Assembly: GCA_947470515.1 (NCBI GenBank)
Contig: CANITF010000020.1
Coordinates: 1 to 52,391 of the forward strand
Length of the DNA stretch: 52,391 nt
Reading direction: 5' to 3'
Source: Flavobacteriales bacterium
Lineage (GTDB): Bacteria; Bacteroidota; Bacteroidia; Flavobacteriales_D; Crocinitomicaceae
Positions 38,423 to 41,516 of this stretch are shown piece after piece. Both the position numbers and the translations under genes were made by a program. Below the pieces are notes generated by a model. It saw nothing but the letters and a program-made list of their open reading frames with translations. It was not told where the DNA came from and did not search any database. The first letter of the stretch is position 1. Each line of letters starts with the position of its first letter.

Positions 38423-39427
38423 TTAATCACAAATTCGACCTTTGTGTTCGTCGTTGTGAAAATGGGCATCTAAATCTTTTAATTCTTCTAATAATTCAGC
38501 TGAAGGCGGAATATTTTGTAAAGCACTTAAATCAGGTTGACCTGCATCGACCCATGCTGTGTACCAAACAGAACCAACAGCAATTATTGCAGCTCTCATT
38601 CTCCTTTCGACCATTCCATTCATTCGTTTGTGGTATTCTTGAGAAAACTCATACGAATAAACAGGAATTGTTGTTGTTCCTCGCTGTTCGAAACTGTATT
38701 TTTTGTCTGAAGGGAAAATTGCTGTCAATTCTTTTTCAATTCGAAGAACAGAATCTAACGCTAAATGAGACCCAGAAACGGCCTCCCAAGCTAGATCATT
38801 CACACTTTTAACATAGATTCCTTTGCCAATAAAATAGTCATAGTCTTCAGCATTTATTTCAACCAGACGGCTTTCCCAGAGACCATGAATTCCTTTTTGA
38901 CCAGTCATTTGACCGTTATAGTTTTCAGTCGTATGCAAAGGAACATGCGCATCACCAATGTAATGACCGATATCAGCAGAATATTTCAAGATTAAATCAA
39001 CATTTTTTGCTTCAAATGCTTTTTGCAATCTCAATTTCATGATGTTTATATGCCACGGCACGATTCCGTAAGTTTGTAAAGTATCTTCTGTAAACTTTGA
39101 TACGGCATCATACCATTTGCGTGGAATAATTGTAAAAGGATCTTCGCCAGGCTTGTAATAATGGTCTAAATCGATATAATGACATTGTGCTTCACCTTCA
39201 ACGGCATAGCGCCTTTTGTCTGGATCTACAGCATGTTCTGTAAGGTATTCGATGTGTTCTTTATAAAACCCGAACATTTCTGGAGGAAGCGTAAAAACTG
39301 CTACACGATTAATTCGTTTATGACCAAAAAAGCCCCATTTTTTTTGAAGAGAATCTGTGTTACTAATTGCCATAATAAAAGGCAAAGTAATCAGAAGTAT
39401 GAGTTTATAGTTTAACCAATTTGCCAT
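38423..39427 (-). CDS. Zinc-dependent phospholipase C / S1-P1 nuclease-like protein
   Basis: The 334-residue protein has an N-terminal signal/anchor (about 1-23) and the trinuclear-zinc fold of the PLC/S1-P1 family. Mature part starts KKWGFFGHKRINRVAVFTLPPEMFGF, with Trp and His ligands; further His/Asp ligands are in CHYIDLDHYYKPGEDPF and YSADIGHYIGDAHVPLHTTENYNGQ. This set is complete as far as I can see. Whether it cuts phospholipids or nucleic acids is not readable. Its ATG lies 23 nt inside the 3' end of comB, so the two are probably cotranscribed. Confidence 0.82.
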   Translation of the reverse strand: MANWLNYKLILLITLPFIMAISNTDSLQKKWGFFGHKRINRVAVFTLPPEMFGFYKEHIEYLTEHAVDPDKRRYAVEGEAQCHYIDLDHYYKPGEDPFTIIPRKWYDAVSKFTEDTLQTYGIVPWHINIMKLRLQKAFEAKNVDLILKYSADIGHYIGDAHVPLHTTENYNGQMTGQKGIHGLWESRLVEINAEDYDYFIGKGIYVKSVNDLAWEAVSGSHLALDSVLRIEKELTAIFPSDKKYSFEQRGTTTIPVYSYEFSQEYHKRMNGMVERRMRAAIIAVGSVWYTAWVDAGQPDLSALQNIPPSAELLEELKDLDAHFHNDEHKGRICD

Positions 39428-40124
39428 CTCTAAGAATTGGAATAACGTCTGTTTGATTGGGTGTTAAACAATATTTAATATCCTCGTTAAGATTCAAATT
39501 TTTCAATCTTCGTCGGTGCGAGCTACTTTTTAGATAACCAAAATAATTATCCTTAGCCGAAAGATACAAATATTTTGCAGCAATTGACGAATCTTCGTCT
39601 GATATAAATTTTCCAGTATTCAACAAATAATCAGAAATTGCTCCAGCGCAAATTGTATCTTCCAAATTGAATTTATCTTGCCAACCTGAGCACAAGCACA
39701 GCACGTTTTTATCTTGATCTGCCAACCATTTGGACAAGGCATCCAAATTTAAAAATGAACCGATAACAACAATTTCAGCATCTTTTGCTACGTCAAGCGA
39801 TTTTGTTCCATTTGTTGTAGTCAAAACAACCTCTTTTCCTCTGAAATCTTCATTCATATATGAAAATGGTGAATTTCCGAAATCGAAACCTTCAACAATC
39901 TGACCTTTACGTTCTGCTCCAGCCAAATATCCTTTTTGCTTATACTCCCATGCTTCCTCAACTGAAGGTACCGGAATAATTGCAGCAATTCCATTGTCAA
40001 ATGCAGCGCACATTGCAGATGTCGCTCTTAATACATCAATGACTACAACTATTTCGTAATCGTCTTTATAATAATCGTATTCACCTGGCGTGAAACAAAC
40101 TTCGATGTGTTTTCTTGTATCCAT
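39405..40124 (-). CDS. comB: 2-phosphosulfolactate phosphatase (ComB)
   Basis: The 239-residue protein matches ComB: VCFTPGEYDYYKDDYEIVVVIDVLRATSAMCAAFDNG at the N terminus, then GAERKGQIVEGFDFGNSPF, VLTTTNGTKSL and CSGWQDKFNLEDTICAGAI. ComB dephosphorylates 2-phosphosulfolactate to sulfolactate, second step of archaeal coenzyme M synthesis. Bacteria do not in general make coenzyme M that way, so here sulfolactate may be an end product or a precursor of other sulfonates, such as sulfonolipids known in gliding Bacteroidota. That is inference. No comA or comC lies in the window. Confidence 0.9.
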   Translation of the reverse strand: MDTRKHIEVCFTPGEYDYYKDDYEIVVVIDVLRATSAMCAAFDNGIAAIIPVPSVEEAWEYKQKGYLAGAERKGQIVEGFDFGNSPFSYMNEDFRGKEVVLTTTNGTKSLDVAKDAEIVVIGSFLNLDALSKWLADQDKNVLCLCSGWQDKFNLEDTICAGAISDYLLNTGKFISDEDSSIAAKYLYLSAKDNYFGYLKSSSHRRRLKNLNLNEDIKYCLTPNQTDVIPILRDGKLVKL

Positions 40125-40153
40125 AATTGGCGGTGAAGATAGGTATTTTAGTT

Positions 40154-40237
40154 GATAGTTTGTAACTGATAGTTGAAAACTGATAGTTTAGAACTGATAG
40201 TTGATAGTTGAAATCTGATAGTTGAAAACTGATAGTT
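40154..40237. repeat. GATAGTT repeat array, left of the four-helix-bundle gene
   Basis: Seven copies of GATAGTT begin at 40154, 40168, 40182, 40196, 40203, 40217 and 40231. All but one pair are spaced 14 nt apart, with the spacer usually ending in ACT (TGTAACT, GAAAACT, TAGAACT, GAAATCT, GAAAACT). Bases 40183-40202 are repeated exactly in reverse at 40670-40689. The array ends 3 nt before the stop codon of the four-helix-bundle gene. Confidence 0.9.
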
Positions 40238-40240
40238 TTG

Positions 40241-40591
40241 TTATAAATTTTTCTTCATCGTGATAATACTACTTTTTAGCATTCTTAATAATTCTAAGGC
40301 TTGAGAATTCAATGAATTGAATTGATCGGTTCCAATGTATTGCGTTTGGTGCATTAATTCCAGCCAATAAATAGTTTCATCACACTCTTTCAGAGAAATT
40401 GATAATTTGTGTATAAAATCTTTTTTTGATTCTGCATTTCTAGATTCACGAATATTGGCTCCAATGGAAGTACTTGAGCGCAAAAGTTGTTTACTTAAAA
40501 TAAATTCTTTTTGATTTATTAGATTTTTGCACAATAATATTGTTTCAACTGCAAAATCGAAACTTTTTGTACGAATGATAGATTCTTTCAT
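40241..40591 (-). CDS. Four-helix-bundle protein (S23/IVP family)
   Basis: The 116 residues fit the S23 or 23S-rRNA intervening-sequence protein family (TIGR02436): SFDFAVETILLCKNL, then the most conserved stretch SKQLLRSSTSIGANIRES, and a C-terminal LSISLKECDETIYWLELMHQ. It folds as four helices and is related to the Avd accessory protein of diversity-generating retroelements. Function is not known. Here it is not inside rRNA. It is enclosed by two repeat arrays in inverted orientation, and it sits directly past the end of the DUF3817 gene, so the gene with its flanks looks like a small inserted unit. Confidence 0.9.
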   Translation of the reverse strand: MKESIIRTKSFDFAVETILLCKNLINQKEFILSKQLLRSSTSIGANIRESRNAESKKDFIHKLSISLKECDETIYWLELMHQTQYIGTDQFNSLNSQALELLRMLKSSIITMKKNL

Positions 40592-40663
40592 GAAATAAAT
40601 AGTTTATTCTTGAATTTAAGAAAAAAGTTCACTTGAAACAAATTTTATTTCTTAATTATCAAA

Positions 40664-40692
40664 ACTATAAACTATCAGTTCTAAACTATAAA
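40664..40692. repeat. Inverted copy of the GATAGTT array, right of the four-helix-bundle gene
   Basis: Read on the minus strand this carries TATAGTT, TAGAACT, GATAGTT, TATAGTT in order, matching the left array. Bases 40670-40689 (AACTATCAGTTCTAAACTAT) are the exact reverse complement of 40183-40202. The stop codon of the DUF3817 gene (40686-40688) lies within it. Confidence 0.88.
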
Positions 40693-40988
40693 CTGGCATC
40701 TTTTTTTTTCAAAATCTTCCAATCTGCCCAAAAAGTCATAAACGGAATTAAGGAAGCGACTAAAAGAATTGCAGCTGTTTTAATAGAATATTTGCGGTCA
40801 AAATAATTTAGAGCGACCCATAAACAATACGCTAAAAATAATCCACCATGAATCAATCCAACTACATAATTCGGTCCTTTAATATCCATCATATATTTCA
40901 AAGGCATTGTTAGTCCAAAAGAGATGAATGAAATTCCTTCTAGTATTGCGAGTAATCGCAATTGGCCGTATTTCGTTTTTAAATTCAT
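40686..40988 (-). CDS. DUF3817 membrane protein
   Basis: The 100-residue protein has three hydrophobic segments (about 10-30, 42-62, 70-88) and matches DUF3817: LRLLAILEGISFISFGLTMPLKYM, then VVGLIHGGLFLAYCLWVAL. Its function is unknown; related domains occur as integral membrane proteins of about 100 residues. It is downstream of the GNAT gene (6-nt gap), so cotranscribed. Its last codons and stop (ASL-stop) are formed from the beginning of the repeat array, so the original C terminus may have been replaced. Confidence 0.85.
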   Translation of the reverse strand: MNLKTKYGQLRLLAILEGISFISFGLTMPLKYMMDIKGPNYVVGLIHGGLFLAYCLWVALNYFDRKYSIKTAAILLVASLIPFMTFWADWKILKKKDASL

Positions 40989-40994
40989 GTTGTT

Positions 40995-41516
40995 TTATTT
41001 ATGATTCCCAGTACCAAAAATAAACACTTCCATGCCTTCATAGGTAGAATTGAAGATTATTTCCATATTATTTTTTCTTGCTACGTTTTGAGACGCATAA
41101 TTTTCAAGATCTATAATCGAAATAAACTGAGTAGCAACCTTGTTTTGAAAACCAAATTTCTTCATTTGCTGCGAAGCTTCAGATGCAAATCCTTTTCCCC
41201 AATAATTCGGCATGAATGAATAAGCAATTTCATGAAAAGAATTTCCTTCTAATTCTCGAGGAATAATTCCTGACATTCCAATCAACTTACCTGTTGCTTT
41301 TTCAACAACTGCTAAATGTCCTAACCCTTCTTCTTCATAACGTTGAAATTGTCTTGTAATCCAGCCTGTTGCCAATTCCAAATGAGATTTTGACATATCC
41401 AATCCAAGAAAATGCAGCAAATTATTATCAATGAAAAATTCTGTCCATAGCGGAATATCTGATTCAGTGAGTTTTCTATAGTGTAATCGTTCAGATTCTT
41501 GGTTGAAATAAGTCAT
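40995..41516 (-). CDS. GNAT family N-acetyltransferase (RimJ/RimL-type)
   Basis: The 173-residue protein has the RimJ/RimL acetyltransferase pattern: ERLHYRKLTESDIPLW at the N terminus, VVEKATGKLIGMSGI, then IAYSFMPNYWGKGFASEAS, which contains the acetyl-CoA pyrophosphate loop (Q/R-x-x-G-x-G/A form, here YWGKGFA), and NYASQNVARKNNME. The acceptor could be a small molecule or a protein N terminus. A near-match promoter box, TATCTTTA, lies about 4 nt before the ATG. It is cotranscribed with the DUF3817 gene. Confidence 0.85.
   Translation of the reverse strand: MTYFNQESERLHYRKLTESDIPLWTEFFIDNNLLHFLGLDMSKSHLELATGWITRQFQRYEEEGLGHLAVVEKATGKLIGMSGIIPRELEGNSFHEIAYSFMPNYWGKGFASEASQQMKKFGFQNKVATQFISIIDLENYASQNVARKNNMEIIFNSTYEGMEVFIFGTGNHK

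Follow-up and report, generated by a model that had tools for sequence, protein, structure and literature searches.

A small S23/IVP gene between inverted short-repeat arms: a candidate compact unit in gene spacers

Does a small four-helix-bundle gene that lies between two inverted arrays of 7-bp repeats form one unit with these arrays, and is such a unit gained and lost as a whole? The question is raised by a locus in the window, i.e. the whole stretch of 52,391 nt that was analysed. The source genome (G000), from a Flavobacteriales bacterium, comprises 58 contigs, is 99.94% complete, and contains four TIGR02436 genes. The features of the locus are as follows.

39405..40124, minus strand: comB (PF04029; 2-phosphosulfolactate phosphatase family), flanking gene outside the unit
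40141..40694, minus strand: the whole unit of arm, S23 gene and arm; edges approximate, estimated against spacers of relatives that are empty or filled differently
40153..40238, plus strand: array downstream of the S23 gene; GATAGTT and AACTGAT heptamers, mostly with period 14
40183..40202, plus strand: exact 20-bp inverted repeat, first copy, from the sequence; pairs with 40670-40689 in the RNA fold
40241..40591, minus strand: S23/IVP four-helix-bundle gene, 116 aa; TIGR02436 and PF05635 above cut-offs, AF2 model, dN/dS against the copy of genome G023
40662..40694, minus strand: array upstream of the S23 gene; TATAGTT and GATAGTT, period 7, inverted relative to the downstream array; overlaps the end of DUF3817
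40670..40689, minus strand: exact 20-bp inverted repeat, second copy, from the sequence and the RNA fold
40686..40988, minus strand: DUF3817, flanking gene outside the unit; last codons and stop within the arm

The repeats themselves are arranged as a preliminary description of this DNA had claimed. Seven GATAGTT copies with a mainly 14-bp period lie on the plus strand at 40154-40237 (successive spacings 14, 14, 14, 7, 14, and 14), a single exact inverted copy lies at 40670-40676, and the 20 bp at 40183-40202 and at 40670-40689 are exact reverse complements of each other; longer pairs exist but are imperfect. For the left array, Tandem Repeats Finder reported 40153-40238 (period 14, score 74), 40167-40237 (period 35, score 121), and 40181-40225 (period 21, score 69). 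Its row for the right array spans 40662-40694 (period 7, unit AAACTAT, score 38), so that the inverted array extends slightly beyond the 40664-40692 given before. The window contains 14 copies of GATAGTT versus 6.92 expected, and at least 14 were found in 3 of 100 shuffles. The count by itself is weak, and the striking part is the tandem clustering together with the inverted pairing. At 40686-40694 the arm provides the final codons and the stop of DUF3817; by eye, the DUF3817 gene of a relative, G005, likewise terminates inside its own, different arm.

The S23/IVP gene is indeed the only gene between the arrays: 40241-40591 on the minus strand is the sole ORF of at least 60 aa, and its product of 116 aa scores 112.3 bits for TIGR02436 (cut-off 24) and 102.7 bits for PF05635 (cut-off 33.8). 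The AF2 model consists of four helices with a mean pLDDT of 94.2. Its fold relatives in Foldseek are 2rld (BT_0352) and 2gsc (XCC0516), which belong to the same family and fold and are 52-53% and 18-20% identical to the window protein, respectively, and, more weakly, Avd (4dwl, TM 0.80, E 0.026), with additional matches to the particles 8ube and 8ub7 of diversity-generating retroelements (DGR). The entries 2rld and 2gsc contain five chains each, and their titles read unknown function or hypothetical. PHROGs and PADLOC assigned no family to the window protein, and an Rfam search of 39900-41000 yielded no match. Between the S23 genes of G000 and G023, dN is 0.016 and dS is 0.525, i.e. purifying selection is strong; the downstream arrays of the same two genomes differ by substitutions and two 7-nt indels.

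The preliminary description had also proposed to test whether the arrays and TIGR02436 genes co-occur. A genome-wide search with a double-unit pattern of GATAGTT, allowing up to 3 mismatches, contradicts such a link. The pattern matches nine places in the genome, and the arrays are scattered: eight of the nine have no S23 match within the 5 kb that were read. Taken narrowly, this is the outcome that the description itself had named as a refutation. The 5-kb stretches round these eight solo arrays also yielded no S23 remnants, and internal inverted pairing at the eight places is not strong (scores 6 to 12). One solo array without an S23 match (L032, G000:C9:19000-24000, positions 2110-2515) mixes, by eye, the heptamers ACTATMA, ATCACTC, and CACATAG in repeated blocks. 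The other three S23 genes of the genome adjoin, again by eye, repeats other than GATAGTT; those on C17 and C9 have arms on both sides, and on C11 only the upstream array is clear. GATAGTT as an S23-specific repeat was thus rejected.

To see how S23 genes are flanked elsewhere, 76 loci with relatives of the window protein were taken from named records; many genomes in this comparison are draft or metagenome assemblies. By eye, the gene is flanked at most of the 76 loci by two arrays of tandem 7-bp repeats, which are usually inverted relative to each other and differ in sequence from locus to locus. An arm score was defined as the inverted match between the two flanks of a gene, with a threshold of 14 or more, and two loci with short or masked flanks were dropped. 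The threshold was reached by 61 of 74 S23 loci versus 3 of 147 ORFs that lie on the same contigs and served as controls, and lags of 7, 14, and 21 are prominent in the flanks of the 74 loci. The picture is the same with one locus per site (50 sites, one dropped for short or masked flanks): 40 of 49 S23 sites versus 2 of 95 control genes score at least 14, the best lag is 7 or 14 at 42 of 49 sites versus 4 of 44 offset controls, and a thresholded period label of 7 or 8 was assigned to 47 of 49 sites versus 5 of 127 control offsets. The stricter, spacer-matched control is small, because only 15 of the 95 control genes have two spacers that each reach 40 bp; of these, one scores at least 14.

For comparison, all TIGR02436 matches of three genomes were scored, and 22 of 37 places versus 0 of 74 shifted controls reached 14. 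The places below the threshold represent 15 of 37 in this exhaustive sample and 9 of 49 in the one-per-site set. Within a given genome, most copies have, by eye, arm repeats of their own, and some share one; in G060, L299 and L301 share one arm repeat, and L295 and L302 likewise share one. Three loci (L077, L147, and L165) have flanks that match strongly in direct rather than inverted orientation, and direct-match scores of at least 16 were found for 7 of 74 S23 loci versus 1 of 147 controls. From plasmids and phages, 16 of 29 matches were fetched. All 14 plasmid loci fetched (from cyanobacteria, Treponema, Monoglobus, and Bernardetia) score at least 19, a value that stands without a matched control; the inverted repeat of one of them, L184, is long and not of the heptamer type. 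The two phage loci (L185 and L186, unverified phage contigs from human faecal samples) lack inverted arms, with scores of 8 and 9. A scan of viral contigs gave seven stretches that fit a pattern, none of which encodes a relative of the window protein. Taken together, an S23 gene and inverted arrays of varying sequence recur across several phyla and look like one compact unit; judged from the genomes compared, its anatomy and recurrence are well supported.

Is such a unit present or absent as a whole? We read 30 loci, in 20 of which, including that of the window, comB and DUF3817 are adjacent. Fourteen of the 20 spacers are empty, four are filled, one contains a remnant, and one contains other genes. 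The empty spacers are 1-137 bp long and lack the unit, so that the comparison of the DUF3817-comB interval proposed in the preliminary description did reveal empty sites. In the eight empty spacers of more than 60 bp no S23 match was found, and the remaining ones are too short for the gene. A lag-7 signal was absent from the 9 of 14 empty spacers that were long enough for the test, which is not very sensitive because the filled spacer of G023 reaches only p 0.05. The spacer of G010 (L049, 1791-2516) contains other short ORFs in place of an S23 unit, and these look rhodanese-like by eye.

The four filled spacers are those of G000, G023, G005, and G007. G000 and G023 have the unit in common, with nucleotide identities of 92% for comB, 89% for the spacer, and 87% for DUF3817. 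The S23 genes of G005 and G007 are 61-62% identical to that of the window, lie on the opposite strand, and have (GGAGTGA)n arms. Between G000 and G005 the nucleotide identity is 95% for comB, 52% for the spacer, and 85% for DUF3817, and the comB of G005 is more similar to that of the window (93.9%) than is the comB of G023 (89.1%), though G023 shares the window unit. In one tree the S23 proteins of the window and of G005 pair as sisters (support 99/90), and in another they group together with a third, long row (92/89); this sisterhood is compatible with one old insertion that was followed by inversion and fast divergence. The spacer of G002 still encodes an S23 tail of 17 residues, which scores 55 compared with at most 47 in 300 shuffles. 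This remnant lies in heptamer sequence (0 of 200 shuffles as periodic), with an inverted score of 9.5 and no clear inverted pair. No recombinase was found for the unit. No target-site duplication was seen either when spacers of relatives were compared by eye, at a divergence too high for one to be recognised; we infer its movement from presence, absence, and replacement.

A second site lies between the genes for 3-hydroxyacyl-CoA dehydrogenase and thiolase. There, the flanks of G000 and G023 are 91% and 92% identical at the nucleotide level versus 64% for the unit (54% for a shuffled unit), and the S23 proteins are 55% identical. The comparisons at comB-DUF3817 and thiolase support a replacement of the unit as a whole at both sites. 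In Chryseobacterium (60 genomes searched, 30 loci read), the spacers on both sides of one aminotransferase gene can contain a unit, and 6 of the 30 loci have an intact, broken, or internally deleted unit; in L258, one spacer is cut down to both arms and short S23 pieces. Other aminotransferase spacers of this genus contain short S23-less hairpins of such repeats (by eye, uncounted). Further units were found between genes for complex I chains and between hsdS and hsdR, and a copy between groES and groEL is broken by a stop (L293, G060:C4:22500-24230). On plasmids of Anabaena and Nostoc (L180 and L182), an S23 unit lies between cas2 and cas1, on the opposite strand. When each site is counted once, the S23 gene has the same strand as both of its neighbours at 38 of 47 sites and the opposite strand to both at 1 of 47. 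The preliminary description correctly took gene and arrays to belong together, as the inverted arms at many S23 genes and the empty or differently filled comB-DUF3817 spacers indicate, but it was wrong about the specific repeat: its claim of one unit holds for S23 genes with repeat arms in general and not for GATAGTT itself.

If the arm sequence is free, is the period linked to the protein? Of 188 sampled proteins, 151 were retained at 80% identity and 124 were kept for the tree; the 27 left out comprise 3 that were not measurable, 19 with no clear period, and 5 with a period of 6, 9, or 12. Set A1 combined the window protein with those of 52 of the 76 loci; L149 (stop codon) and L170 were taken out, and the others were short or near copies; arm measurements cover 101 of the 124 tree rows. 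Among the 124 non-redundant proteins with a label of 7 or 8, the period is 7 in 105 and 8 in 19. Mapping the label onto the tree requires 11 changes versus 18.0 for shuffled labels, and 0 of 500 shuffles were as low. The members of one clade of seven (support 100/99), from different hosts, all have period 8. The repeat period thus clusters on the protein tree, with a link that is not strict and a tree that has few columns and several long branches. The arms also have a polarity: of 76 upstream arms, the GC skew is positive in 62 and negative in 10.

Several features can be read from the sequences, i.e. the anatomy, its recurrence across phyla, the empty or differently filled sites, the clustering of the period, and the purifying selection. 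They are consistent with an explanation that we consider probable: compact units, about 0.4-0.7 kb in size and widespread as a class, in which an S23/IVP gene lies between usually inverted arms of 7-bp (in some lineages 8-bp) tandem repeats, would be gained, lost, or replaced whole in short spacers, mostly between genes of the same strand, with the RNA folding out and an S23 ring reading the arms. In a transcript of 40140-40700 the arms pair around the ORF (RNA fold z -3.63, 100 shuffles); such pairing is expected from any inverted arms and by itself says nothing about function. As the Coxiella 23S rRNA intervening sequence has the same plan, the arms are proposed to pair in host transcripts, so that the S23 ORF is folded away from the rest of the mRNA, which could explain why the unit is tolerated in a spacer. 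The S23 protein probably forms a ring, as its relatives do; in recognising the arms, each subunit would bind roughly one repeat, and the protein may take part in keeping or copying the unit. A fixed period with a free sequence would follow from a ring that reads one repeat per subunit.

What else could account for these observations? Heptamer arrays might arise first, by slippage in host spacers, with S23 genes caught between them or recombined in. The eight of nine GATAGTT places without an S23 match, some of them mixed with other heptamers, would fit such an origin, as would the reported abundance of heptamer arrays in bacteria (PMC4679880, PMC4692102) and the S23-less inverted-repeat hairpins, seen by eye, in those Chryseobacterium spacers that an S23 unit occupies in other species. 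However, neither the arm polarity relative to the ORF nor the clustering of the period on the protein tree would be expected, the eight solo places lack strong internal inverted pairing, and the testable empty comB-DUF3817 spacers lack a lag-7 signal, in a test of low sensitivity. We therefore regard this origin as unlikely. A further explanation, an ordinary conserved small gene with local regulatory repeats that is immobile and inherited in place, is in accordance with the strong purifying selection and with S23 genes that adjoin those for thiolase, in several genomes of the genus as well as in Chryseobacterium. It is contradicted at two sites by empty or differently filled spacers and whole-unit replacement, and also by the 4 to 17 S23 matches, some broken, that each of 12 genomes carries, and it appears improbable.

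Two further explanations remain. The arms could be REP-like sequences moved by a Y1 transposase, with S23 as a passenger; inverted hairpin doublets do resemble REPINs (PMC3116915), and the genome contains two Y1_Tnp genes. Yet neither of these genes lies between inverted arms (scores 12 and 8), and the four S23 genes of the genome have, by eye, four different repeats, whereas a REP family shares one sequence, so that there is little to recommend a REP/RAYT-like system. Alternatively, S23 could be the Avd-like partner of a reverse transcriptase, as suggested by the Avd fold and by the resemblance of PF05635 to Avd noted in PMC10053308. The 99.94% complete genome has no PF00078 match at E 0.001 or better, and we consider this very improbable.

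Compact S23 units thus remain the preferred reading, and a more far-reaching version of it can be formulated, which is possible but rather doubtful. S23 units would be a separate class of mobile elements of gene spacers in many phyla, and the S23 ring would be their reading head, the subunit spacing of which sets the period (7, in some lineages 8) of single-stranded arms. Solo heptamer arrays (STRRs, TAACTGA, GGGAATC) would largely be their traces, and rRNA intervening sequences would be copies that landed in rRNA.

Structures of the S23/IVP family have been solved, yet the structure records matched give no function. If the S23 protein and short-repeat arms are one unit, the function of S23 and the spread of heptamers become one testable problem: are the repeats read by the protein, and how does a unit get into a spacer such as the one between two complex I genes and leave the host transcript usable? 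Since the period clusters on the protein tree, a sharp prediction can be made about the binding of the repeats by the S23 protein.

How do the units compare with known systems? With diversity-generating retroelements they share the Avd-like fold, but G000 has no reverse transcriptase match. REPINs are described as inverted repeat doublets that can form hairpins and have an associated protein gene (PMC3116915); in contrast to REPIN/RAYT, the S23 unit has no Y1 transposase, its sequence varies among the units of one genome, and its arrays have period 7. The window arrays resemble the heptanucleotide STRR arrays, being tandem 7-bp units in spacers that are dispersed in the genome. The heptamer arrays TAACTGA (PMC4679880) and GGGAATC (PMC4692102) are reported as intergenic, dispersed 7-bp tandem units, and two Xanthomonas genomes as having 70 and 75 close convergent pairs (PMC4679880 / PMC4692102). 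For the spread of TAACTGA, PMC4679880 reports no evident mechanism, and the words "S23" and "four helix" are absent from the main text of both papers. Among the matches listed in the open literature, which include papers that name the family only in passing (e.g. PMC10910872, PMC5787105, PMC11448079), none was seen to tie S23 genes generally to repeat arrays.

The nearest known system is the 23S rRNA intervening sequence, which likewise has an S23 ORF, inverted ends, and heptamers. According to PMC4990558, the sporadically distributed intervening sequence of Coxiella contains an S23 ORF and terminal inverted repeats that form a stem, is excised by RNase III, and has tandem heptamers directly upstream of the ORF, the copy number of which varies between strains; the S23 protein is described as probably not made in vivo. 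This paper is the only one among the matches listed that reports heptamers beside an S23 ORF, and it does so for that one element. In CPR bacteria, the same protein family is reported to be scattered across several rRNA insertion sites (PMC11270868). In the window unit, as in the intervening sequence, terminal inverted repeats capable of forming a stem enclose the S23 ORF; the unit differs in lying between the protein genes comB and DUF3817 instead of in an rRNA gene and in having no Rfam match, and in the S23 units of gene spacers the arms themselves are the repeat arrays.
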